DNA of 64,000 nucleotides from Annona cherimola (taxonomy: Eukaryota > Streptophyta > Magnoliopsida > Magnoliales > Annonaceae). The stretch spans positions 75,162,224 through 75,226,223 of the forward strand of contig CM059971.1 in NCBI GenBank assembly GCA_030490835.1, given 5' to 3'. Shown here one piece after another: positions 1 to 63,458 of this stretch (positions are counted from its first letter, which is position 1; each line of letters starts with the position of its first letter). A program made the position numbers and the translations under genes. The notes under the pieces were generated by a model. That model had not been told where the DNA came from, did no database searches, and saw only the letters and a program-made list of their open reading frames with translations.

Positions 1-977
1 TAAAGGATGATTCATTGGAATTGCTTAGAGAACAGTCGAAGGATGGTAAAAATGGCCTAGATGGATGCAAATGAAGAAATGGAAAAACCAATTCTAAGCA
101 TGGATTTAATAGGCTGTCATTCAAGTTATGGTCAGCAGGAATTGTTAATAAATGATTGTGATGTAGAATGGGAAGTGTGAAGGAATAGATGCAAGAGGAT
201 CCATCCTCTCAAAGGAATCAAATTAGATGTGCATATCAAACCCTCAGAAAGTGCATCTATTTAGGGCATATTCAGCTACTAAAGATTTGGAAGCTGGATT
301 TGGATTATTTTTAATTTTCTCCCAAAATATAACAACTGTACTTCCCATCTTCCAATACGCAACAATCCTATTTTCCCTTGTTATTACCTATAATTTTTAT
401 ATTGCAACGTATGATGTGACATACACCTACCATAACAACTTTACTTTTCCAATTTCCAATTCCAGTCCAATCCAACCTAAGAGCCCGTAATCAGAAAAAC
501 AAAACTGTAACACAATTTTTCTTAGTCTTATGCAATCCCAGTACCAATTCTAACTTGTTGTATAACTCTTACCCAATCCCAGTTCTAATACTTGTGGGAT
601 CCATTAACAAAATCCTAAAACAATTTAAATCATTCGTCAAATACTAAGTATAAAATCCCTAAAACAATAGCACTAAAAAAATTACGAATTTAAGTAGTCC
701 AAGTTCTTTTTTATTTTTTTAAAATAAGTTAAAGATGTGTGGAAATGCTGAATTGTGTACCTTCTACTGTGTAGTGAACCTGTTATTACCACATTTAAAA
801 AGAATGAACAGAAATAAATCTCATAGGAATGACTTGTTGATGAAAAAGCTTTCTTTTTTAAATATGCTTTATCTTAATTCACCTGTTTTCAAAAATAAAA
901 AGCAAAAAATTGATTTGCTACAATTTGCAATTCATAGGTAAATATTTTAATGGTACGGCTACTTTTTTTGTGAATAG
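1..977 (+). other. TPC1 intron sequence, no exon recognised
   Basis: This stretch lies upstream of the first recognisable TPC1 exon. I looked for the preceding conserved segment (the end of the S3-S4 region of domain II, finishing in the codon for Trp) and did not find it, so the intron is at least 977 bp. The sequence is AT-rich. The pyrimidine run ending in AG at 977 is the splice acceptor. Confidence 0.6.
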
Positions 978-3900
978 GATTCGGTACCTTCTTATAGCGA
1001 GGATGTTGAGATTGATCAGACTTCTGATGCATGTTGGTCGCTATAGAGCTTTTGTGGCAACTTTTTTAACCCTCATACCAAGTCTGATGCCATATCTTGG
1101 GACTATATTTTGTGTTCTATGTATTTATTGTTCCATTGGTTTACAGGTATGTGCTTTCGAGTGTTTCTCTTTTCAGCAAATATTTTCACATCTGCAACTT
1201 TCCTACATATTTACAATAACACCAAAAGTTTTAATTAAAAAAAAAAAAAAAAAACAGTAACACCAAAAGTGAATATTTTTCAGTTATTTGGGGGAATTGT
1301 CAATGGCGGAAATTCGAAGTTGAAAGAAACAGATCTCTATGATGATGAGTATCCTTTTAAATCATCTGCAGCATATTTACATTTTGTACCTGACTTCTGT
1401 AACGAATATCATGATTGTATTTTCCGCACTTGCATGAGTTCAAATCTATATTGTGGTTCTCTTATCCTCATGTATTTATCTACCAATTCTCTGTACATAT
1501 CCCTGGATGAAAATTTCTGTTCCATCTGACAATTTCTTAACCGATCTAGCTACTTGCTTTTCAATTTTAATGACTACCCAAATGGGATGGTAACACTGTT
1601 CAATTTGGTCGTCATGGGAAACTGGCAAGTCTGGATGCAGGTAATAAGAAATTTTGATTTCCCCCTTTCTATAATAATGCTAGTTATCAATGCCAGTCTC
1701 ATAACCTCTTCTACTCAATTTGTTAGTTATTCATGCATGAAAATTCTCTATGAAAACCTCTAGATTGTGCTCTACCAATATGGACATGAAAATTCAGTAT
1801 GAAACATCTACCAATGATTCTTGCATACAACAGTTCCAGTCAGCTACTTTCTTGGTACATCATCCTTCATATGGGAAAAATGTAAAATATTGACACATTT
1901 TATTTCTTATTTTTCTGAATTTTAAGATATTTTTTTCATATTATGTTGGCTTTAAAAAAATAGCATCCCATAGTCCGATACTGATATGACACGGGCAATG
2001 GATGGGGCCGATACTCCCCAGAATTGAGGAGTGATCGTTTAGGATTTGTAAAAGAAATGTATGAATAAATGGGTGATATTATCATTTCGGTGAAAGCATA
2101 ACTTTAGAGGCATTCGAATAGGTCCAACTGTCAGAAGGATCCCTATGTCTGAACTAGTGAGTTGGCACTTCTCAGTATCATCATATTCAGTTTAGTGTCA
2201 CTGTTTTATCAGCAGTTTTCGAGGGTTTTTTTTTCTCTTTCATGGTTTTTCAATTTGGGTGTATTTGGCAATTGATAAAAAATGTCAAGTTAAAACTTTT
2301 CAATCTAAAACTTTTCACTTTCCACATCTATCATATTTTTTAAATTATTTTTTACATTTTCCTATACAACTATCCTATTTTTTAATCATTTCTACACAAC
2401 TATCAACATAACTAACCTATCTATTTTTACTTTATCCTCTTTACTACTCATCATTACCCCTATCATATCACAAGATTTGACAACTTTTTCTCTCCAAAAC
2501 TTTTCATCAAAAGTTTTATTCATTATCAAACACACCATTTATATTCATGTTATGTGAGGTTGTCTGAAGCCTTTGGCCGGTTTCTAGTTTTTTGCCACTG
2601 TTTTTTTGCATCTGTATGTGTTGGGGCTGCACATCAAGTTGCATTGCAAACTCAGCATCACTTGGGTGTTAACTCTAGCCTAAGCCAATTTGAAAGATTC
2701 CAAGAAATTTATTAAAAACACCAACAAGCCTGACCTGAACCTGCATAATCTGACATTTTAGGGTGTGCTACTGTGCTTAGTAAGTGGTAAAAGAAATTTT
2801 TTTGGTGGAATGTTTTGAAATTGATAGGGTAAAATGATGTGATATGATAGGGGTAATGATTAAAAGTAAAGAGAAAAAGTTGAAATAGGGAGGGTAGTTG
2901 CATGGGAAGATGTGAAAAAGTAAGAGAGAATTTGTTCTTTTCTCCTTTACAAAAAACACTCTTTAGTAAAAAATTTATAGAGCGAATTGAGGACTGGGGA
3001 AGATGGATTGGGGAAGATAAGGCCTTGGAGAATTCTTTGGTCTATCCATGACAATCTGGTAAGGGTTGGATTGCCCCAGAACCAACCAAGACAATTCAGG
3101 TTCAGCTCTAGCAAACTAGCCTGTATTCCTGTGTTGCTTCCTGAAAATCCTGTGTCTTACTATGCCCAGTTGAAAACTTGCAGGTTAGTGGTGATAGAGT
3201 TGCTGCTGCCTATCTTAGTGGGGTCCTCTTGGAAATAAGCTTGTGCTTCCTGAAAAGCAATACAAATATGGTGCTAGATTGATTGGATTGAGTTGAGCTT
3301 GTTGGTTACAATTCGAATTCAATCTAATTTGTTCCTAAGCTTGTAGTTACGTGGTATTGTAATTATTTAAGATTTCATTTTACCATTCAAAGTCTGTTTG
3401 ATCCTCTGTTTGTAATCATGCTATCAGTAGTCAATACAAATTTTCCTTTTTAAGAACTTTTTTTTCTGCTGGGAATATTGTGATCTGAGTATGTCAACAT
3501 CTCTGTTTCATGAATACATAAACAACTGAACTCTTAATCATGTTGTTTGTACTTATCGAGTGTTCGTATGTGTGCGTTTCTGCCTTGATAGTGTGATCTC
3601 TGTGTTTCTCTATATAGAATTCTAACAGAGATTTAGTTTTAGACTTTATAAACAAGTTGTTACTATATATTGAGCAACTGTTGCATAAAATGTTCTATCA
3701 AAAGATCTATATAACAAGTTGCTATTCCTTTAAAAACTTAGCTGTCCGACCCGTTTATTTAGTTGTTTCGTACTTTCCTGTCTTGTTGTTACTTGTAACT
3801 AATATGTATTCAGCTTGAATATTAGCTGGATGATGCAAATTTTTTCTTCTTTTGGTGCTGCTAATTCTCTTATTATTACATTTTTCAGAGCTACTGGGAT

Positions 3901-24091: not shown

Positions 24092-27000
24092 TCAGTCATC
24101 AAACTTGTGAATTCGGAGCGTTCTCGTGCACTCATTCGTCTCAGGAGGCTTGTCGATAAATTGCCGACAATCAGCACCATTGTCTGCAAGAGCAACCAAC
24201 AGGGTTGGAAGGAGTTTGCCTAGATTGGTCTTGAAATTTGCTGACGGATGTGGATGCGGAAATTGAACTTGCACAGCTCCAGCATCTGTATTCACTTTCT
24301 TGTCCTTGTCATTCTTTTCCTCATTCTCAATCTTTAACTTTTTCTCCTCCTCTTCCTTCTCCATCTCCTCTACTATGGGGCTGGCAATTTGAGCACCATC
24401 CAGGTATGCTTTGCATGCCTGTAGTATGTTGTGGGCTCGTGCACGGAAATGTCCTGCTACAAAATCCTCAAAATGCTGCCAGAGAAAAATGATCACCCAA
24501 ATAAGGAATATAAAATCAATTTCCTTGAATGATACAATGAAGGTATGTAAAGATCCTGCAAATTATATGAAGACAACCCAAACCTACCTTTGGTGGTCTC
24601 CGTAGATTATACAGCATAGTTTTGCAGGATAACACAAATACGTCCTCATTGTAAGAAATGGATTTCATCTCCCCTGCAGGTTTGCCAGCTGACTTTGCAT
24701 ATCCTGGCTCATTGAAATATGGCTTCTCATTTAGCACAAGTGCCTGAATTGAAACTAGAACTTGTAACATTGTTGACTTTCCAGGGGTCCATAACTCGCA
24801 TTGGCTCCCATGCCAAGTATTAAGTAGGCTAAGGCAAACTTTACCACAATTATACAAGTTTGGATTTAGCCGAAGCCCACCAGAGTGGTAGTGTACCAGC
24901 TGCACAGAAAAAAAAAAAAAAGAACTAAAAAAATTAATAAATATAAGAAAGAGAGGAAACTGGTACTTTCAAATGGCAAGCTAAACTGCAGCATACAGGC
25001 CAAGAGGAAGAAGCAGCAACCAGAGTACACGTGAAGTAAAAGGAGAAAATCAGACAAAAAAAAAAAAAAAAAAAAGATGGTGACTTTTGGGGAACAACAG
25101 TTCACGACTCAGCGAGAGATCATAATGCTGAAGACAATAGATCAAACTGAGTGAAATATCACGTACCGGTGGGTGATTTGGATAGTTGGGAGGAAAATGA
25201 ACATCAAAGAAGAAAAGGCCATCATGGTAGGGAGTTCCTGAGGCTCCCACAATGACAGCCCTAAGAAGATCCAGCCTCTCTTCATAAACTCTAACAAATA
25301 TTGTCTCTGTGAAATTGAGAAAGCAGTAAGATTTCACATATGAGAAGCAATAAGATAGCACACAAAGCATAACCATGAACGAGAAGCAACACACAAAACT
25401 AGAGTACTAGACAGGCATCAGAAGAATGCTCAGCTAGAACTAAATTGCTGTTACTGGAATAGAGATAAACTTGGGCCTATGTCCCCCACTATAAGCTTAC
25501 ATTTTGCAGTGAACTTCAAGCACATCATGTAAGGTTCCTTTCAGATGCAATATCTTTATGACAAGAATGAAGATAAAAGAAATAAAATATAAATTGCTGC
25601 CAGAAATACTTAGAAATTAAATGAGGTCCTCATCCTATCCACATTCAGACAGGAATCTGAAAACAAACTTCTGAATGACAACAACTAAAATTTCAAAGCA
25701 CAACTGCACAAATGACAGAACCTTCAATTGTACAGAAACTGAATACCGTCGTCTCCCCAAAGTTATTCTTCCCAACTTGGGATGGATTTAGATGCCAGTG
25801 AGCATACTGTTCTAGTTCTGTTCAAAGAATTGGGTTCGCTCATCAATTAGAGTCCGTGTAGCTTACTCTCTCCAAGCCATTAATTACTGAAGTCTTCCTC
25901 AGGTTGCCAAAGGGAGTAAATTAAAATTTAGTAATAATTAAAAAAAAAAAACTTTCACAAAAGAGTTTAACAAAAGTGGGAGGACAGGACTTTCTTATCA
26001 ATGCGGTGTCTAAATTTCAATCTAAAGCAACATCATAATCTACAATATACAGTTAAAACCAGTAAAGTTAAGCTTAATTGCAAGCAACAATCATAGAGAA
26101 TATCTTAAGGTATCTTGTGATTAGAAGCTGAAGGCACAGTAACCTGGTAAATCTTTCTCCAGGATCTTCCACTCCTGCTGAATTGTTTTTGACCAATCCT
26201 TTGGCGCCTGTTTGCATACAAGGGAGAAAAGAAACCAATCAGGCCAAAAAGCATATATACTAACCAAACATAAAACATGGCTGAATGACTTAGCTTCATA
26301 ACTAAACCACCTTCTTTGTTAAGGAGACTGCTTGGGAGACGATGTCGGAGAAACTGCTACGATATTTCTCTTTTGGATCAGCATAATAATGGTCAGAATA
26401 ATCAGCAACCTCATCAAAGTGCTTAAACTCTTTATATTTCTTTTCAACATCATCCTCCCTCACATCCATTGCCTTACTTGTACTTGGCTGGCTTCGGTCT
26501 GTTAACCAGGGAACAGAGGCCTCTACCCCAGCAGGCAGGTCTACGGCATCAAATTGAGCATCTAAATTGGTCTCGTAATCCAAATAATCGATGTCATCAT
26601 CATAATCATCATAATCCACGTCATCATTATCATCATAGTCAAAATTTTCATCGTCCTCATAAGTTTCATCAACGTCATCATTTTTAGCAGCTAAATCATC
26701 ATTGTTGTTAGCCACCATATCGGAATGTATGCTGTCAGGATTGCTTGAATCTACTGATTCTGGGCCAAAGACTTTGAGAACATTCAGAGAGGCATTTTCA
26801 ACTCCCATCATGTTATCCAAATCAACAGTATCTGGAACCAAGGAAGCCTGCAAAAAAAAAAAAAAAAACTTGCATTTATGCATCTGTTCAACATTCAGCA
26901 TGGAATACCATCAATAAATTTGCAGACATCATACCTCCCATGGCTTCTGCCAATTCTCACCATAAGACATGATTTCCTTATCCTTCGTGCCAGTGCTATC

Positions 27001-39795: not shown

Positions 39796-39879
<84 letters not shown>
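39796..39879. repeat. (GA)n microsatellite
   Basis: About 42 uninterrupted GA dinucleotides inside a longer G/A-rich stretch (39736-40130). The open frames it creates on both strands are low-complexity artefacts. Confidence 0.95.
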
Positions 39880-41559: not shown

Positions 41560-43640
41560 TTTTTAGTTTAGGACAATTTCTTCGGTCATGACCAACTACC
41601 CATTTTTTGCATCTACTACACTATAGACTTCCAAAAGTCGGTTGACCTTTCCTTGGTTGAAGTTTTTTTTCTGGGGCTCCCATACTACCAACTTGAGAAC
41701 TTTTGTGTTGTAAGAATGTCCCCTAAAATTCTCCCCACATTTTCAATCATAGTATTTCCTTCTCTCTCAATTTCACTGAAGTTGTCAACTTCAGCCGGAG
41801 TACAGTTTCCAAGGCCTTCATCCTCTTCATTGATGGCAACCTCATTTATTTTCCGTTCAATTATTTCATTTACTTCTGTTGTCGCCTTGTCCATATGTGT
41901 TTTAACAACTTCTGCTTGATGCTTAAGAAAGGAGAACGTATAACAAGGTTGTTCTGTGTATCGCATGATGATGGACGAGATTGATGCTTATGTTGACTTT
42001 TAGCAGACCATGTCGAATAAGAGAATGTATTGAGGAGGCATCGACATTATCTCTTTGAACTTGAAAATTATGAAAATGTGTCTACATAAAAATCCAAAAA
42101 ATTCAAATTTCTGACAAGAACAAGATATCATTGCTCCTACTGAATTCCAAAATACAATATGCCATACATTATGTTTCTTTTCTCCCAACCTATATACTTG
42201 CCAACTTTCCTAGTCTTCCTCTATAGCAATTTGTTTTGCCTAGTAATAGGTGCTATTGTCCAACTCTTCATGGAACTCGTAAAATGATTTCAATGTATAT
42301 ACCTTTGTCATATTTGCTTCCATAGTCCATTGTGTCTTCAATACTAGCATTCCATTCAAAGTATCAAAGTCAACACAATTCTCATCTTCATGAAGCCTTT
42401 GGATAGCTTATTCATAACCACTAACAAAATCGAGCAAGCTGGATCTATGAGTTATAAGGTTATCAAATATTGCATTCATGCTTTCACTACGTCATGTTGT
42501 TCTCATGCCAGCTATAAATACAGATTTAGTAAAAGCGAGGACCCACTTTTCTCACACATTATACAGGTTTTGTAGCCAAGCATTGGTATGTAAGTCAAAC
42601 TCAGCAATTATTTCTATCCAGGCACTTTCGAACTCCGCAAGAGTCGATGATCGATACAAGCACTGATCCTATTTTGACTTGAAGTTTGGATGCATGCTGA
42701 AGACATGGGATAACTTTTCAACAATTGCACTCCCAATCACTGCATCTTGGTCAGCGATGATCGCCTTTAAATGACCTCCTCTCATTTCTTCTAGCCATGA
42801 TTGCAATAACGACTTAAAATCATTTGTGATTTCACCACATAGCAAACCTCCCCCCAACAACACAGTCTGCATGTGATGGTTCACACCGACGAAAGGTCCA
42901 AAAAGCATATCATACTCATTGGTTCTATAGGTTATATCAAAAGAAATAATATCACTGAAAACCATGTAGTCATCTTTTGATGCTCCATCCACCAAAAAAC
43001 AAGATAACATACGCATGTTCTCATCTACCCGAATCTCGTATGTGAAGTTCCCATCATCCTTGTTTTTTGACTAAAAAAGCTCAATAATGCATCATCGTCA
43101 CTCCCATGCATTGTCTGCCGCTTCCTCCACAATGCATTCCTAAGATCCCTCTCTGTGTAACCAAGTTTTGAATAACCCCCCTGCTTCAGTCGTCAAGAAA
43201 TTAATATATCTTGTTACACCTATGCCAACTGCTTTTAAGCTAGAGATTAGATTTAACTGATATGATCCCACGCTTCTATGTGATCTTAGGAAATGTGACT
43301 TTGTAGGCGTGAAAAGAGGATGATTATGTGATTCTTCAAAATGAGTAATTATGTAAATACCTTTTTTCCTTTGCAATAGTATCGCCGCCCTTGCTGGGCA
43401 TTCACAACGTGTATGTGGGCGATGCTTTTCTTACCATCACTACTTTTGTCTTGAATTAGCAATATTAATTTTTCCGTCTAGCCCTTGAACATAGGAACAA
43501 ACGTCTTGAAACCTCTCTATCCTTTGTCTTATGTTGTTGATCTTTTCTAGTAATAAAACCGGAATACCATGCATAAGTGTTGTAGAATTTGTGTGCGTCT
43601 TCAATAGATGCAAATTCCTATCCAATACTTAGCTTCTGTT
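41560..43640 (-). pseudogene. FAR1/FRS-like (MULE transposase-derived) pseudogene
   Basis: Family members are MULE-transposase-derived transcription factors or the transposases themselves. In minus-strand order: FAR1 DNA-binding region with EDAHKFYNTYAWYSGF near 43590-43540 and HFEESHNHPLFTPTKSHFLR near 43345-43285; MULE domain at 43016-42669 with DYMVFSDIISFDITYRTNEY, GPFVGVNHHMQTVLLGGGLL and KAIIADQDAVIGSAI; SWIM zinc finger near 42130-42060 (CSCQKFEFFGFLCRH); zinc-knuckle near 41615-41580 (CSRCKKWVVGHDRRNC). The frame breaks in an A-run near 43070, and stops occur at several points (after FKSK at 42669, and between the MULE and SWIM domains). It is not functional as read. Terminal inverted repeats were not found. 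Confidence 0.8.
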
Positions 43641-50235: not shown

Positions 50236-53200
50236 TTAGATCTTGGGAACTTCCTCTGCTTGCTCAAGGAATTCCTGGCAGTTTATCCCTAGCTCAGCGA
50301 ATGCAGACATAAGCATAGGCAAAAGCTTGGCAAGCATGATCTTAAAACCCCTGGAACTCCCCTGCAGAGATTCAACAGTGTTGGTTTCACATCCAAAAGC
50401 ACGACCAACCTGAATGCCTCCCATGTATGCCTTGCAAGCAAGGAGAATTGATTGCCCACGCAGCCTGAAATGCTCCTCTACAATTGACTCAAAATTCTGC
50501 ATCGTTTAAGAAAGCCAAATGAAATAGAATGAGTTTCTAGATGGGAAAATATATATTTATATACCTACAGGGTGACCTGTGGCTTCAGATGGCGGTAAGC
50601 CACAATCCTTACACATCCAGTTGTCCCCAGTGGAACGTGAATTATCTAGCAGTACATGGTTGTTTCTGCTGAATGGCCCGGATATTCTAGCTAGTGTTAC
50701 ATTCAGCCCAGACATGGGCATCACATGATTAGAGAAAATCTTTTTTGTATTTCAAATGGGTGGGTCTGATTTGATCTGATGAAGCCTCAGGCCCTCAACC
50801 TTTGATAAAATAGCATGTCACTGATCCAAGTGGCAATCCATACCTTTGGAGGTTTGCGTAGTAGATAGAGCATGGACTTGCAAGAAAGAAGGAAAGCATT
50901 CTCGTTGTAAGTGATGGAATTCTTCTCTCCCTCGGCTCTTCCTAACTGCTTATCATATCCAGCCTCGTTGAAATATGGCTTGTCATTGAGCACCAATGCC
51001 TGAAGGGAGAGCAGCACTTGGAGTATGGTTGAACTCTCTGGATTCCATACTTCAGAACCTGTACCAGCCCATGTCTTAAGAAGGCTAAGACAGACTTTTC
51101 CAGATTCGTACAAGTTTGGATTCAAACGAAGCCCACCAGAAATGTAGTGTACCAACTGCATGAATTTCGCAGAAGCCGTTAGCCCCAAATAAAGAGAGGA
51201 CCATATACAATAAAAGCCACCTGTATCCATGTATATTTTTATATCCAATATCAAGTTCAAATTTCATATATACATGGACATGTCAATTCACACCATAGTC
51301 CAGCTGTGACTTTCCAAGAAAAAAAGCATAATGAACTTAACAGGACAGAATTTTTTTAAGGCTGCCTTAGACGCTTTTCTGCTATTGATGCTGGTAAACG
51401 GATTGTCAAAAAATATAATTATGTATGTAGGATGTCCCGAAATATTCAACCTGTCAAAAGGAAGGCAATTTACCATAGCAGCTGCCTTCCCGTGTGCAAA
51501 CTCCATACATACAGAGTATCCATTATTACAAAAATTCTAGTCGACAATCATTACATATTTTCCTCAGTGATGGGTAGTATACAGCCATTGTTCACGAAAA
51601 TTCTGCACCCATAAGATGAGAATACAAACTTCAGAAGAAGAATAAACAAAGGAAATACTTACAGGCGGATCATGGGGATAGTCAGGAGGCAGAAAGATAT
51701 CAAAAAAGAAGAGCCCGTCATGATATGGAGTTCCTGGGGCTCCGACAATTGCTGCCCTCATTAAGTCTATTCTTTCTTCACAGACTCTAACATAAATGTT
51801 ATCTGTTCAGGCAAAAGAAGCACAATTAGTAATGAGGCAACCACATACTGCTGCGCCATGTCCAAGGAAGATGTTTATAGCAAAATCCCATGTCTTAAAA
51901 GGCCAAATGACAGGGGATTTGCAAATAGGCACATCGAGTTTGTGTAATTTGCACTTTTTGACCCTTAAGTTTCATCTTTGCAACAGATGGCTTCAAGTTT
52001 TAGCAATGTGCAGTTTTGGTTCCTTGGTTACATGAAACACTATCACTGTGTATTTCCAAAACTTGAAGCCATCTACTGCAAATATGAAACTTAAGGGTCA
52101 AAAAGTAATATTTTGGTAAACTTGAGGTATCTCTATGCAAATCCCCCGCCAATTGACGGACCTCCAGTATCGATCCAGAACTCAGAGATTCGGTTGTTGA
52201 AAGCAACTCAACATTTGGTTATCATCTAAATTAATCAACCCTCCTGTCAACATGTATGCTTGCTTGTCTTTTATTTGAAAATGGAAAATGCAAGTGTTCT
52301 AGAATTCAGGAAAGCACAACCAGCATGTAAATAGCATATTTGCTAATCAATCATCTGAGGGATCCGCATGCTCCTGATGCAATGTTGAAGAATGAAACTG
52401 GACCCGATTATGGTCAATAATTAGATGCTTATAGAACAATTAGGAAACTCTCCTGGTGATGGTCCAGATTTAATCATACAACTCATATTGATATAAGGAT
52501 GAGCCAATAAACCTATCACAAACATCACCGTAAACAGAAAAATAAAATGAGTAATGTCACAGATGTGCTATAGTTGTATTAAAATTTGAGCTGGATTATC
52601 AAGCCAAAAGATAGCAACCAAAATAACAGAATACACACTTGCAGAATCTATCATTCGGGGTCATTTAAGTATTTTTGCCACAAAAAAATGACATTTAATA
52701 TCCTCTTCTTTTGTTTGGCTCCAAGATTAAAATTTTCAGCCTCTTAGAAAGGGTAAAACTTTGCTAAGCAATGTCCAGAAAGCATCATAAAATGAAATTT
52801 TCATGACATGATACAAGAAAGGACTAACCTGGCAAATTTTTCTCTAGGAGAGTCCATTCGTGCTGCACTTTCTTCAACCAACCTTTTTTAACCTGTAACT
52901 AGCAAGACGAATGTACTCAGCATATCAAGGAAACTAGATTCAATGAATAGAACAAAATTCAATTCTTTACCTGAGACAGTGTCAAACCCTTTCCAGCACC
53001 ATTCACAAAGTGATGATCAGCATAGTCATTAACTGTGTCAAACTTTTTGAATAATTCCAGTTTCCCACTATCTTCCCTTGGTGCCAATGGAGTGTCCTTG
53101 ATGGTTTGAGTCCCTTCTACATCCTGTTTCATGCTTGTTTCTCCTGATGTCTGCAAATCATCTTCTGCAGGTGATAGCCAATGGTCAGCCTGTTGTGTCT

Positions 53201-56200
53201 TATTTTCTGACATTTTCTTCCATGGGAACAGCCGAAAGTAACTTTTGGCATTTGACATTGGGGTCTGCAAATCAGAATCAGAGATCTTCATAGTATCAGA
53301 AGAACTTGGCTTCGTTGAAGTTGAAAGCGAAGAGGAGCCATGAGAGCCAAAAAGACTGGCTGCAAAATTTGTGAGAAATCCAATAGCTGACTGCTGATGG
53401 GAAACTGCAATGCCATCTGATGCATCTTGCGTGTGATCTTTACCAGAATCATTGAGAGCTTTCACTGGAACATCCTGCAATGAAAAGATCCATTCCTTTC
53501 AGCCAGAAGTTGTAACACAGAAGTATATATATTCAGGTGTGCACATCTACACTTGACCCTGTAGCCTGTAGGCAAAGTTATTCCCATGTATCTCTGCAGC
53601 AGTGCATGCATGTCTCTCTGTGTCTATATGCATGGAGGAGAGAAAGAGATGACCTTTTCTTTTTTTTGCAAAGATTCCTTTTCATTCTCCAGCATTTCTT
53701 CACTTGAATGGTCTTCAGCATCTTGCTGTGATGGAGTTGAAGCTGGATCTTCATATCGATCAATTCTGACAATTTCAGAGGGTCCTACCTGGAGTAGTTT
53801 AAAAAGATTAGTTCAGCAGATGATAGTGATCACTAACAGCCAAATACAAAGACACCATATCACCACAGAGCAAAGATCAATGGCCATGTCTAAGCTGAAG
53901 GTTTTCAGACTTATCTACTGAGAAGATGCTGGTGATTATTAATAACCACAATAAATGTACAAGATCACCACAGAGCCGATTTAGCCCCCATGATGTTCAG
54001 ATTTGGGATATGGATTTAGTCCATGTGATTCAAGACAATTAATTTTAAAAAAAGCCATGTCTAAATTGAAGGTCTTCAGATTGAGCCCATGTGGTTCAAA
54101 ATAAGTAACACAAACATGTAAACACAGTCCAAGGACTTGCAAAACCATGCATCACAGTATTCGCAGACATGCTCAATGCTATGCATACCAAAACAAAAAT
54201 CACCAATGGCAAGTAGTAGTGGTTCCATTCAAAAGAAAAAAGAAAAAGAGCAGTCCAGTTGTCCTACTGAAGGAAAGAAGATAATGAGAATGCATGTTAC
54301 TGAATCAATTCCCTGATTAAAAGATGCATAGACTGCTCCTTATTGGAACTTGTAGCTCACTCATGACAACATGGCAAAAACACTTGTCAAACCGAGTTTG
54401 CCGTTAGATATGCCGTCCTCTGGTCCAAAGTCAGTATAATCCTATACTATGTTCATCAAATTAAAGGTGGAAGAGGGATTTACCAGCAATCAGCCCCCAG
54501 TTTTTGGTCTTAACATATGTACAAACCATCGTGTCCCCTAGGTATCAAACTGTCAATATCTTCTATAAGATTAATAAGCAGTATTAATCTTGCATACTTG
54601 GGACATGTTGACAAAGTCAAGCAACCAGTGCCATGTAAGCAGTGTGATATAATCAATAATGAAATAGGGGTAAAAATAGAAGAGAAAAAAGAAATCCTCT
54701 CAAGGGCCAAAAGAGAAGAAATTCCAAAAGAGAAGAAATTAAGGACAGAGAAAGGGAGACTGTGAGAAAAGAGAAGAATAGTAGGGAGGAAGACCATGGG
54801 AAAGAGAGTAGAAGGATTAAGGTAGAAAGAAAAAGAATGATAATGATAGTGTCAATCAATTGAAAACACACTAACCCTAATTTGAGAATCGACATTCATA
54901 ATTGATATGTAAAACTAAACTCTTTAATTCCTTCAATAAAAATAAAGGTATTTAAAATACTTATTATAAGCTATCTACTCCATCAAAAAATTATATATAA
55001 GCTATCTACCTAGTTGTTATGTGTAACATTTAGACTCAGAAAAATGATTCTAGGCCTGTAGGTTATGAGTCTCACAGTACGATATTATCCACTCTGGATT
55101 AGCAGCGTAGCCGCACGATTTTAAAACGCGTCACACTATATTTAACCCACTTATAAACCCCTAGGCACTCTTTCCCCTTTTCAATGTGGGATTTGGTTTT
55201 GGGCTATTACAGGCTTATCGGCTTCCACTTGATTTGTCCTTGAACTATAACTTAACTTTGGGCTTCTACCTGCAGTCCTAGTTTTTACTAACTCAACTCT
55301 TCGACTTTCCGAACCACCTCTATTGGAGGGAATCTGCTCTGATACAATTTGTCATGCCCAAACCCAGAAGGCCTATGAATTATGGATCTCACAGTGTAGT
55401 ATTTGCCTAAAGTTCGTTCCCCTTTTCAATGTGGGATTTGGTTTTGGGCTATTACAGGCTTATCAACTTCCGCTTGATTCGTCTTTGAACTATAACTTAA
55501 CTTTGGGCTTCTATCTGCAATCCTATCTTTTACTAACTCAACTCTCCGACTTTCCGAACCACCTCTATTGGAGGAAATCTTCTCTGATACAATTTGTCAC
55601 GCCCAGACCCAGAAGACCATCGTGGGCCTATGAATTATGGATCTCACAGTGTAATATTGCCCGCTTTAGCTTGGAAACTTGATCGCACAATTTTAAAACG
55701 CGTCATACTATGTTTCGAGCTTAGACCCACTCATAAATTTTTAGGAACCTCTCCCCTTTTCGATATGAAATTTAGTTCTATACTGTTATAAGTCCTCTAG
55801 CTCCTACCTGATTTGTCTTCAAACCCCAACTCAATTGAATTTTAATCCTCTGCCCACTCATCTCAACTCTAGGCCTCAGCCCTTCGTCCTTCAGCAATAA
55901 CTCAACTCAACTCTAAGCCCCTGTCCCACATCTACTGGAGGGGTCTATTCTAATACCATTGGTAACGTCTGGATCCAGGAAACCATCCTGGACCAGTAGG
56001 TTATGGATCCCACTATGTGATATTATCTGCTTTAGCTTGGCAACTCAGTCGCACAGTTTTAAAATGCATCACACTATATTTAACCTAAGATCTACTTATA
56101 AACCCCTATGAACTCTCTCCTCTTTTTAATGTGAGATTCGTTTATGGGCCGTTATAATATGTGTTTTGATCTCTTGAGGTTTGCATGAATGAAGATCAAA

Positions 56201-58308
56201 TGAAAAAAAAATTATTTCTAAGCATTTTGCATCACTGTCTGATTCCTTGTCTAGATAAATATCTTCATGTCCAATGTCTAGTCCATGAAAATTTAACAGC
56301 CTATTTAGGAATGAAGACAAGGGACGGAAAAGAGGTGAATAGGAAAATGGAAGGAAATTGGAGGAATTAGTGTGGCAAAATTGAAAGCAAATGAAAAGAA
56401 AATGAATAAATAATAATTATAAAGATAGAGAACGATGATTAGAAATTTAGGTTATGATGAGAAAAAAGAAAAGTTAATAAGTGATGTCACATCACATAAT
56501 TTTTTTTAAAAATGTGGAGGAGAAGTAGAAGGAATTTCCTTCTCCCTATTCCCAAAACAGAACCTAAATAGAAATAGTATAAGGAATGGGAGATCTCTGG
56601 AGCAACACAGCCATTTTCAACTAAAGCATGTTGAAATAGTCCATTCTTCAAATATTGACATGACATTCTCTACCTGCCAAGCCATATAAAACTAGCCTTT
56701 TTTTAATGGATATAAAGCTAGATTTTAAACATACAAAACTGTATCACTTTGTCCATAGTCAAATTAACGCACTAAAATTTTTAAAGAAGATATAACTATT
56801 TTGCATACCTTGGAAATTAGTCCATTTGCCCATTTCACCTCAATACCCCCATTTTTAGAACCAATGACATTTCCAACACAAGATAAATAAGCATTATTTT
56901 TACCATCTTGACCTTCTTCAACATGCTTCTTGTCGAGCACCTTTCCGATTAATTGAAGTGATTGCATATCCATTTTCGTCTGTTGTAGATCTTCGTGGCC
57001 TTGAATTTGCTCCTTAGTTTGGATAACATGAATTACATCCCAATTCTCAATGAATGGAAACAACCTAAATACCACATCCCCAAGACAATATGAATAGTCT
57101 GGATGCTCGACCAGTTCATAAGCACTGACAACCTCACCATCGCAGTCTGAATGAGATTCAGTTGTTTGATCCGTCTTAGGGCTTTCCCATTTCACCTTCA
57201 CTGTCCTTTCATTTGCATCCACATTTTTCACTATTCCCACACGTTGGGCAGCAGAAAGGTCATTCTCATATGCACCTTTTACTGTTACAAACTGATCAGG
57301 CCAAAAATCATGGTCACCAAGGTTGTCCACAGGAATCAATGCCTGTGAGTCCAAATTGCATGAACAGCTACCATCTTGCCAAATGACATCAACTTTAGTT
57401 TTTGTCTTCACAATAACAAAAACATTTCCACATTCAGGATCCCTTTTGATGGGTCCTCTTCCAAAATTTGTATACATTTTAAACAGTTGGGTAGATATGT
57501 TTGTGTGCACTTGCTCTTTAGTATCCATCTGATTAATGCGGTAGGCATCTGGAAGCATACACCAGTCACCAAGTTGCCAATTAGCATGTGGAAAGCACGA
57601 CAGTAAGGTGAGATTTTCTGGATGCTGAAGACTAGGAGGAGGAGCCGAAACAAACTTGCAACCAACAAGAACAGAGGCAATCCAGTTGACATATATGGAC
57701 CCTACTTCAACATGGCACACAACACCTTCCTCACGGTTTGGTTTCCATTTTCCACACAACCATTTTGCAGATTGAAGGGCAGTTGAAACCCTTACGCGCA
57801 CATGCTGACCTGGATAATATGGATATAGGGTATCTTCAAGTGAGTTTGGAGAAATGGGAATGAGACTGTCTGGGTTTGCTGCTGCTATCTCACACTTTGC
57901 CCCATCCTCAAAGAGGATGGTTAAAAGATCAATTACTGTATCAACCCTCCCAAGCCATGGCCCATGAACTACATAATCCCCTGCCACAAAGGGACGTAAT
58001 TTTAAAAGCTTCTTGCTACATACACCTTTAATAACATCGCCAGAGATGCTTTCCAAATCAACAGTCATATAAACATCCACAACCCTACCAAATTGCCCAG
58101 ATGGGTCCATGATGGAACAAACAACATCCCCATGTGAAAACCCTCTTTCAAATGCAAGGAAATCATCAATCTTTCCAATGCTCTCTGTCAAGCTTGACAA
58201 AATGCTCTGAGCATGATTGCCATATATGGATTCAACATCATCATGATCTTCGCTGTCACTGCTCACGCTATAAGCCTCCCAATCTGAATCACTAAGCATA
58301 TTGATCAT
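50236..58308 (-). CDS. PHO2: E2 ubiquitin conjugase PHO2/UBC24 (phosphate homeostasis)
   Basis: Seven coding exons in transcript order: 58308-56809, 53788-53654, 53474-52971, 52892-52829, 51802-51663, 51155-50844 and 50496-50236. All have GT-AG borders and joining phases, giving 971 aa (Arabidopsis PHO2 is about 900). An in-frame TAA sits directly before the ATG. The N-terminus has LSDSDWEAYSVSSDSEDHDD, SIYGNHAQSILSSL, KIDDFLAFERGF and YYPGQHVRVRVS, all PHO2 landmarks; repeated SH3/Tudor-like blocks fill residues 50-500. Mid-region: SAIGFLTNFAASLFG. The UBC fold runs from about residue 714, with GTPYHDGLFFFDIFLPPDYP and LRLNPNLYESGKVCLSLL; catalytic Cys about 803. The C-terminus is ACKAYMGGIQVG...GFKIMLAKLLPMLMSAF. 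In known plants it acts at endomembranes, promoting turnover of PHT1 transporters and PHO1. The leader upstream carries the miR399 sites. UBC23 is the alternative, but UBC23 lacks the miR399 array in family knowledge. Confidence 0.93.
51913..52147. mobile_element. Inverted-repeat (hairpin) MITE in PHO2 intron
   Basis: The left arm GGGGATTTGCAAATAGGCAC ... TTTTTGACCCTTAAGTTTCAT ... AGATGGCTTCAAGTTTT is matched by the right arm read in reverse complement (ending ATGCAAATCCCC, with AAGGGTCAAAAAG and AACTTGAAGCCATCT). Arms of about 95 bp with a short centre. It lies in the intron between 52829 and 51802. Confidence 0.75.
53789..56808 (-). other. 3.0-kb PHO2 intron
   Basis: Separates the exon ending KWANGLISK from that starting VGPSEIVRIDRYEDP. 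Apart from the repeat block 55044-56160 it holds G/A-rich sequence at 54660-54840 and an unremarkable remainder. No exon was detected inside. Confidence 0.7.
55044..56160. repeat. Nested/tandem LTR-like repeat, about four units, in PHO2 intron
   Basis: The block TATGAATTATGGATCTCACAGTGTAAT recurs at about 55049, 55361, 55622 and 55996 with variants. Each is followed by GTCGCACGATTTTAAAACGCGTCA and CCCCTTTTCAATGTGGGATT, and then GGGCTATTACAGG. The unit order is the same throughout with deletions in some, so these are tandem or nested copies of a common plant dispersed repeat that looks like LTR sequence. Located in the large intron 53789-56808. Confidence 0.65.
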
Positions 58309-58858: not shown

Positions 58859-59120
58859 GGGAACGTTCGGTAATGCGTGAAATTGTGGGACTGTGGGAAA
58901 TCGAAAAGAGAATATTTTGATAAACGTGTAATTCATAGGAAATAATAGGGGTATAGTTGGAATAAATAGGTTTGTTGTATGTAGTTGGTAGGGAAAACGA
59001 TTGGAATATAGGGGTAAAGTGGAAAAAATAGTGTGATTGATGGAGCAATGATTGGTCTTGGGAAAGAAAATCCCATGGTTTTCCATGGTTTCCCACACTT
59101 GCATTTTAACAAATGTGCCC
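58859..59120. mobile_element. Harbinger-type MITE with TAA duplication in PHO2 leader intron
   Basis: Starts GGGAACGTTCGGTAATGCG and ends CATTTTAACAAATGTGCCC. TAA flanks both sides (58856-58858 and 59121-59123). The interior matches the copy at 63187-63458 in reverse orientation (TTGGAATAAATAGGTTTGTTG against CAACAAACCTATTTATTCCAA). Confidence 0.75.

Positions 59121-59243: not shown

Positions 59244-59285
<42 letters not shown>
59244..59285. repeat. (GA)n microsatellite in PHO2 leader
   Basis: About 20 GA units, read as CT on the transcribed strand. Close to a candidate splice donor at 59295. Confidence 0.9.
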
Positions 59286-59288
<3 letters not shown>

Positions 59289-59527
59289 CCATACCAGAAA
59301 TTGTATTGCTTGAAATGGAAGCACCCGTACCAAATGTTTCCTCTCGTTTAGACCTCAGATTAATACCAAAGCATAAAGAGACCAGTGATAACACGAGTGA
59401 CAGATATAATTTCTTTGGACTTGATTGGTCAAATGGAGTGTGCAAGTCCAAACATTCAGACTGATCAGACAGTTCAGTATGGATAGATTACAGATATTTC
59501 AGGGCAGAACCTGAATATGGTATGAGA

Positions 59528-59548
59528 TGCCAAAGGAGAATTGCCCAG
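59528..59548 (-). promoter_or_regulatory. miR399 target site 1
   Basis: The plus strand reads TGCCAAAGGAGAATTGCCCA, i.e. the mature miR399 sequence with a change at position 13 and one near the 3' end. The PHO2 transcript therefore carries the complement. The seed (positions 2-12) is perfect. Family knowledge: miR399 is UGCCAAAGGAGAUUUGCCCUG or close variants. Confidence 0.8.
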
Positions 59549-59595
59549 CACAACCGTGGAGGTTAATGTCTGGATATAGAAACTAAGAAAGTAAC

Positions 59596-59616
59596 TGCCA
59601 AAGGAGATTTGCCCAG
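59596..59616 (-). promoter_or_regulatory. miR399 target site 2
   Basis: The plus strand is identical to miR399 through TGCCAAAGGAGATTTGCCC, with only position 20 differing. Near-perfect pairing including the cleavage positions 10-11. Confidence 0.88.
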
Positions 59617-59642
59617 GGGAGAAATTTCCCTGAAATATTAGC

Positions 59643-59663
59643 TGCCAAAGGAGATTTGCCCAG
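59643..59663 (-). promoter_or_regulatory. miR399 target site 3
   Basis: Same sequence as site 2, 47 bp downstream on the plus strand. The spacer AGGAGTTATTTCCCTGGA is also repeated, showing that the unit was duplicated. Confidence 0.88.
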
Positions 59664-59689
59664 AGGAGTTATTTCCCTGGAGTAGTAGT

Positions 59690-59710
59690 TGCCAAAGGAG
59701 ATTTGCCCAG
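59690..59710 (-). promoter_or_regulatory. miR399 target site 4
   Basis: Identical to sites 2 and 3, again 47 bp on. Followed by a shortened spacer AGTAGTATCCCTGGAATATT. Confidence 0.88.
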
Positions 59711-59733
59711 AGTAGTATCCCTGGAATATTAGA

Positions 59734-59753
59734 TGCCAAAAGAGATCTGCCAG
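59734..59753 (-). promoter_or_regulatory. Degenerate miR399 site 5
   Basis: TGCCAAAAGAGATCTGCCAG: a G-to-A change at position 8, a T-to-C at 14 and one missing C. It keeps the register of the array (44 bp after site 4, 45 bp before site 6) but pairing at the seed and centre is weakened, so it may not be cleaved. Confidence 0.55.
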
Positions 59754-59778
59754 AAATGCATTTCCCAGTGGGAAACAC

Positions 59779-59799
59779 TGCCAAAGGAGATTTGCCCCA
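59779..59799 (-). promoter_or_regulatory. miR399 target site 6
   Basis: TGCCAAAGGAGATTTGCCCC followed by A: matches the miR399d-type variant ending CCCCG at all but the last base. Confidence 0.87.
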
Positions 59800-59909
59800 A
59801 CAAAACTTGTTCACTCAGTGATGATGATCTCAAAAGTGATACTCCAAGCCAGATATAACACAAGGCTGCATTGCGAAAAGGGATCTTCCAGATAAAGCCA
59901 AATTTTCTC

Positions 59910-59928
59910 TGCCTGGAGATTTGCCCAA
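59910..59928 (-). promoter_or_regulatory. Degenerate miR399 site 7
   Basis: TGCCTGGAGATTTGCCCAA keeps GGAGATTTGCCC but has lost two bases of the CAAAGG part. The 5' seed pairing is broken, so it is probably a relic. Confidence 0.45.
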
Positions 59929-59959
59929 AAAAAGCAGATCTTCTGTTGAAGCACGCTAT

Positions 59960-59980
59960 TGACAAAGGAGATTTGCCCTG
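59960..59980 (-). promoter_or_regulatory. miR399 target site 8
   Basis: TGACAAAGGAGATTTGCCCT followed by G: identical to miR399a except C-to-A at position 3. It is the 5'-most clear site in the transcript. A further very weak trace (TTGCCAACAGATACC) lies at about 60010-60025. Confidence 0.82.
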
Positions 59981-60274
59981 TATAGCCAAAAATTCCAGAA
60001 GAATATGCTATTGCCAACAGATACCGAAAGCTGTTGCATTGGAGAGAAATTGATGTCGAATACCTTTATATGCAAACCAACAGCCAAAAACAAACTCAAT
60101 CTGCCTATTGAAACATCTAGCTCAGAAGGAAAGATCCATCATATGAATATTCAGAAACTATGAACTTATGGACCACTTTGTTTGTGATGAAAGCTAGATG
60201 ACAGCATTAAGCCTGCAAAACATATTCAAAGAGGAATTACTAAAAACTATCTTACAAAAAAATAAACCTCAAAA

Positions 60275-60277
<3 letters not shown>

Positions 60278-60339
<62 letters not shown>
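60278..60339. repeat. (CT)n(CA)n compound microsatellite
   Basis: About 21 CT units followed by 9 CA units inside a probable PHO2 leader intron. Confidence 0.95.
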
Positions 60340-63186: not shown

Positions 63187-63458
63187 GGGGACGTTTGGGA
63201 ATATGGTGGGGGAAATGTGGGAGGGAAAATGTGGTAGCATGGATTTCGAGATCCATCATTTCACAACTAATTATTATATTTTTTTACTTTTACCCTTATA
63301 TTCTAATCATTTTCTCTGTCAACTACCTTCCAACAAACCTATTTATTCCAACTTTACCCATATTATTTCATATCAATCACACAATTTTCAAAATATTCTA
63401 TTTTTTATTCCTACAAAATATCACATTTCCCACAACTTTCATATTCTCAAACATCCCC
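63187..63458. mobile_element. Harbinger-type MITE with TTA duplication upstream of PHO2
   Basis: Starts GGGGACGTTTGGGAATATGG and ends CATATTCTCAAACATCCCC. TTA on both sides (63184-63186 and 63459-63461). Same family as 58859-59120. It sits about 240 bp upstream of the presumed PHO2 transcription start. Confidence 0.78.

Follow-up and report, generated by a model that had tools for sequence, protein, structure and literature searches.

An enlarged array of miR399-like sites in the predicted leader of a PHO2/UBC24-type gene of Annona cherimola

Flowering plants control phosphate through the pairing of miR399 with PHO2, a central switch, and the reason why PHO2 leaders hold multiple miR399 sites is unsettled. 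The stretch of Annona cherimola DNA analysed here (64,000 nucleotides; hereafter the window) carries a compact array of miR399-like sequences next to a gene of this type. It raises the questions of whether the array is a source or a target of miR399, how it came to its present size, and what its members might do.

Both strands of the window were scanned for ungapped 21-mers with at most six mismatches to Arabidopsis miR399 sequences. Seven were found, all on the plus strand and all within 59528-59980, and none lay outside that interval on either strand of the 64 kb. As a background, 50 first-order Markov sequences as long as the window were compared with seven miR399 isoforms; the best match had three mismatches, and matches with four or fewer mismatches numbered 0.14 per sequence on average, with a maximum of 4. 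The array is not a product of chance, and its placement at 59528-59980 by the first-pass annotation is confirmed by the scan and the Markov background. Compared with Arabidopsis miR399, the copies at 59596, 59643, 59690, 59779 and 59960 have one mismatch each, that at 59528 has two and that at 59734 has four; the one or two differences noted earlier for 59779, 59960 and 59528 thus stand as 1, 1 and 2. We named the sites S1 to S8 in the mRNA sense, i.e., along the minus strand, S1 being the 5'-most and S8 the 3'-most. In the following list, local scores are those against four isoforms of the same genome, the L023, L026 and L027 sequences being left out.

59960..59980, minus strand, S1: mismatch at miRNA position 3; best local score 3.0
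59911..59929, minus strand, S2x relic (59910 in the first-pass annotation): decayed, seed match deleted
59779..59799, minus strand, S3: best fit to the local L011/L022 isoform, score 0.5
59734..59754, minus strand, S4: weak; best local score 4.0
59690..59710, minus strand, S5: 21/21 perfect to the local L013/L024 isoform
59643..59663, minus strand, S6: 21/21 perfect to the local L013/L024 isoform
59596..59616, minus strand, S7: 21/21 perfect to the local L013/L024 isoform
59528..59548, minus strand, S8: best fit to the local L012/L025 isoform, score 1.0

The array consists of six strong sites, one weak site (S4) and one relic (S2x). S2x retains the stretch opposite miRNA positions 8-19 and has lost 2 nt of the seed match; as its ungapped score is 16 or worse, it was counted as a relic. 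S4 scores 3-6 against the seven isoforms used for the background and 4 against the best of the four local ones, and it is weak but not clearly dead. The initial description of eight members, six of them nearly perfect and those at 59734 and 59910 decayed, is therefore right for the six strong sites and for the seedless relic at 59911-59929, but too severe for 59734.

The surroundings of the array bear on whether it belongs to a PHO2 transcript. The relevant features are as follows.

50236..58308, minus strand, PHO2/UBC24-type coding region: 971 aa encoded in 7 exons, free of internal stops
58308-56809, 53788-53654, 53474-52971, 52892-52829, 51802-51663, 51155-50844 and 50496-50236, minus strand, PHO2 coding exons
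59295..60212, minus strand, non-coding leader exon of 918 nt holding all sites, predicted from splice-site scores

In the 971-aa protein, Pfam detected the tSH3-B, SH3-B and SH3-C domains of UBE2O together with UQ_con, all above cut-off, and the best-scoring solved chains were UBE2O-type E2 enzymes. One intact protein thus combines SH3 domains of the UBE2O type with a UBC domain at its C-terminus. These E2 domains plus the miR399 leader identify the gene as being of the PHO2/UBC24 kind. The predicted order on the minus strand is leader exon (60212-59295), intron, and ATG exon from 58316. With a simple home-made splice-site score, the acceptor of the leader exon ranked second of 25 listed and its donor third of 15 listed, which makes the predicted boundaries plausible. 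The seven sites and the relic all fall in this predicted non-coding exon ahead of the ATG exon. Both their orientation and their position upstream of an intact PHO2/UBC24-type gene fit the earlier proposal that they are minus-strand target sites in a PHO2 leader. There are also nine short upstream ATG frames within the predicted exon, and not one of them overlaps the coding start.

Several other features lie in the window. A 79-nt sequence at 58899-58977, within the predicted intron between the leader and the ATG exon, has an inverted copy at 63331-63409 (86% complementary) and is perhaps a small transposable element. A direct repeat of 205 nt (55169-55373 and 55414-55618, 92% identical) sits within a PHO2 intron. 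A second E2 gene, putatively UBC25-like, is found on the same strand about 25 kb beyond PHO2, at 24092-24968 and perhaps extending to 26910. Its frame at 24516-24968 has a UBC domain whose best matches are BIRC6 and UBE2O chains, and the scan of the 64-kb window found no miR399 site near it. Reading frames with a MULE transposase domain (42669-43070, minus strand) and a partial ion-transport domain (862-1260, plus strand) are also present.

As the plus strand spells mature miR399 seven times, the array might instead be a cluster of MIR399 genes, a source of miR399 and not its target. One plus-strand fold pairs 15 of the 21 bases of S1 to a single contiguous stretch, but none of the 14 plus-strand folds has the 17-20 contiguous paired bases of real candidates. 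The window contains no Rfam MIR399 match at the gathering score, and 59300-60250 contains none up to E = 10 on either strand, whereas the same model finds at least six places elsewhere in the genome. Moreover, the array precedes PHO2 and is oriented as a target would be. We rejected the MIR399 cluster, as it shows neither a covariance-model match nor a mature-arm hairpin, and consider it extremely improbable. A target mimic of the IPS1 type is not supported either. Such a mimic, according to the portion of PMC6571617 available, pairs with the full seed and bulges opposite positions 10-11; no bulge is present in any of the seven sites, and S2x, the relic, has no seed match.

If the array is a target, the miR399 isoforms of the species itself are the relevant partners. 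The exact miR399 core pattern occurs at 10 places in its genome (791.8 Mb), five of them inside the PHO2 leader, and a reversed control pattern occurs at none. Four of the five places outside the leader fold with 17-20 of the 21 mature bases paired; the other, L009 (L020 4436, G000:C3 28897437), gives no precursor fold, with 10-11 of 21 paired. One of these five has an Rfam MIR399 match at gathering score. Genome-wide, the Rfam MIR399 search returned 11 rows corresponding to at least six places, two over and four under the gathering score, a lower bound, the scoring having covered 45 of the 42,564 candidates from the first look.

The mature part of the predicted hairpin L013/L024 equals S5, S6 and S7 in all 21 positions. 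These three are thus perfect targets and not one-mismatch targets, which replaces the single 3' difference from miR399 first ascribed to 59596, 59643 and 59690. The same sequence is identical over all 21 positions to published soybean miR399a-d and to a peanut isoform. S8 is one mismatch away from a rice-type isoform that the genome also encodes. Near-full complementarity to same-species miR399 thus extends from S5-S7 (21/21) to S3 (score 0.5) and S8 (score 1.0), as judged against predicted hairpins. The mature part of L026 begins with C, and L027 is a doubtful MIR399, with four to five mismatches to known mature sequences and no P1BS motif.

A P1BS motif is present within 200 nt upstream of five of the six Rfam-detected MIR399 places, L027 being the exception; at the P1BS density of the window this enrichment has p = 2e-6, with the 200-nt limit set post hoc. 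P1BS motifs also occur near the PHO2 leader, at 60001, 60145 and 60377. On the contig of PHO2 (G000:C1), MIR399 places occur in clusters: L014-L018 and L027 are at 124.226, 124.264 and 124.270 Mb, three places within 44 kb, and L022-L023 are at 77.204 and 77.214 Mb, some 10 kb apart and approximately 2 Mb from PHO2.

The size of the array can be addressed through the sequences between the sites. Tandem Repeats Finder reported one element here.

59595..59797, no strand assigned, tandem array: period 47 bp, 4.4 copies

Homology between spacers or flanks reached p < 0.02 in 3 of 36 pairs, namely those among S4-S5, S5-S6 and S6-S7. These repeats make it clear that the surplus sites arose through tandem duplication, the unit being 44-47 bp long. 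The S5 and S6 units have identical sites (0 of 21 bases differing) but 7 differences in their 26 spacer bases (Fisher p = 0.012), and from such sequence comparison S5-S7 are likely to be under selection. Unequal exchange, i.e., homogenisation, could also have produced the identity of the S5-S7 sites. The S4 and S5 sites disagree at 5 of their 21 bases, while 14 of 15 aligned bases of the S4 spacer are the same as in the S6-S7 spacer; the S4 site has thus diverged more than its spacer. Judged by their letters, S4 and S2x are decaying. The array therefore seems to expand by tandem duplication and to shed sites by decay.

Five miR399 sites are described for the PHO2 leaders of Arabidopsis, rice, Medicago, poplar, bean and wheat in the parts of the published accounts available, in agreement with the five that the first-pass annotation gave for Arabidopsis. 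In those parts, published leaders range from four to six sites, and among the matches listed from the open-licence literature no PHO2 leader with more than six miR399 sites was found. Array size is known to vary, and on these partial sources the present array is an expanded example, above the published 4-6.

The closest plan is that of bean PvPHO2, as the accessible text of PMC3645745 gives it: a nine-exon gene with two 5'-UTR exons and, as here, seven coding exons, and an array whose second site is poor and is followed by a long gap and then a 3' cluster, again as here. The start-to-start steps computed from the published bean positions are 91, 170, 54 and 54, compared with 51, 130, 45, 44, 47, 47 and 68 from S1 to S8 here, relic S2x included. 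Bean has five sites with a 3' cluster of three, whereas the 3' cluster here has six. Arabidopsis PHO2, in the accounts consulted in part, likewise has its miR399 sites in the UBC24 5' UTR; the protein has 907 aa and the gene nine exons, beside 971 aa and 7 coding exons here. It differs in having five sites, with experimentally verified cleavage; those described here are known from sequence. For bean, wheat and barley, the excerpts at hand place the sites in a non-coding exon that precedes the ATG exon, as is predicted here.

Cleavage itself is uneven in the species studied. The sites of barley HvPHO2 lie in 5'-UTR exon 2 and are of unequal quality, as they are here; papers differ in counting five or six of them, cleavage was found at sites 2 and 5 only, and site 1 is a perfect match whose cleavage product was nevertheless not found (PMC4919326, PMC3878733, as excerpted). 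Nicotiana benthamiana PHO2 also has its array in the 5' UTR, with four sites, the second and fourth of which were confirmed cut by 5' RACE (PMC6296076, in the section available). The first-pass annotation suggested that the response of this copy to phosphate starvation may be stronger or more graded; because of this unevenness, more perfect sites need not give stronger repression. It may be that the extra sites are neutral leftovers of duplication with no regulatory effect beyond that of the usual few. The decay visible in S2x and S4 is in line with this, as is the partial cutting elsewhere, confirmed at two of four sites in N. benthamiana and found at two in barley according to those excerpts, whereas S5, S6 and S7 have stayed identical despite a drifted spacer. 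We regard neutral leftovers as a serious possibility, though less likely than not.

We also considered the folding of the predicted leader. Predicted accessibility in windowed folds gave site means of 0.36-0.55, close to the exon average of 0.47, and the fold of the array was no stronger than those of shuffled sequences (-79.7, against a shuffle mean of -82.7). Local hairpins ending in the first bases of S5, S6, S7 and S8 were equalled by 7%, 0.3%, 22% and 1.7% of shuffles, respectively. S1 and S3 gave no such signal (79% and 89% of shuffles equal), and the stem at S4 (9% of shuffles equal) excludes the S4 site. As S5-S7 share ancestry and the hairpins were assessed after having been seen, the predicted hairpins at S5-S8 are a lead only.

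The predicted leader exon is further bracketed by two long dinucleotide runs.

60278..60321, no strand assigned, (TC)22 run, GA in the transcript: 44 nt, upstream of the leader exon
59244..59285, no strand assigned, (AG)21 run, CU in the transcript: 42 nt, with its start 9 nt into the intron that follows the leader exon

Three AG/TC runs of at least 20 nt occur in the window, the third at 39798-39879. The two listed are complementary in the transcript and flank both predicted ends of the leader exon, and in the minimum-energy fold of 1106 nt 42 of 44 run bases are paired. The GA and CU runs could thus favour skipping or circularising of the predicted exon. In a fold of this sort, however, complementary runs of such length always pair, and microsatellites vary, which leaves the bracketing repeats as a lead. 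It is conceivable that the site-bearing exon is often skipped, leaving much of the PHO2 mRNA out of reach of miR399 and confining the action of the array to the longer form. As the exon is non-coding, the protein would be the same without it, and an Arabidopsis PHO2 form lacking miR399 sites is cited in the part of PMC10319397 available. The paired 44-nt GA and 42-nt CU runs point the same way, but the lengths of microsatellites change fast and runs of this kind pair in such folds regardless. Frequent skipping, which we think rather unlikely, would supplement the main explanation, not replace it. Bolder still, the site exon might be a movable miR399 module, folded by the GA and CU runs and either skipped or released as a circular sponge with seven sites, while, through isoform-matched sites, the depth of repression would depend on which MIR399 genes are switched on; this we hold to be quite improbable. 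If the bracketing repeats truly move the exon, they would add a layer of control to the phosphate switch.

The locus is very probably the leader through which a working PHO2 (UBC24) gene responds to miR399, with a 3' cluster enlarged by duplication. The steps of the PHR1-miR399-PHO2 pathway are established in other plants. By analogy, under phosphate starvation PHR1-type factors would act at P1BS motifs to turn on the MIR399 genes. AGO1-loaded miR399 would then pair with the PHO2 leader sites, and the transcript would be cut opposite positions 10-11 or its translation repressed. With less PHO2, phosphate transporters and exporters would escape ubiquitin-dependent destruction. In A. cherimola, the 44-47 bp unit was duplicated in tandem, giving the bigger 3' cluster. 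The genome sequence itself shows correctly oriented sites, an intact gene, hairpins whose isoforms match and, ahead of most of these, P1BS motifs; the boundaries of the leader exon are inferred, as are transcription and cleavage and whatever effect the number of sites may have.

What is new in this known system is the surplus of sites, the exact fit to a local isoform, and the repeats that bracket the predicted exon. Seven sites are usable, among them three that are identical and match a local isoform perfectly and one that is weak; together with the single dead copy, they make this natural array a test of site number versus site quality in the dose response.
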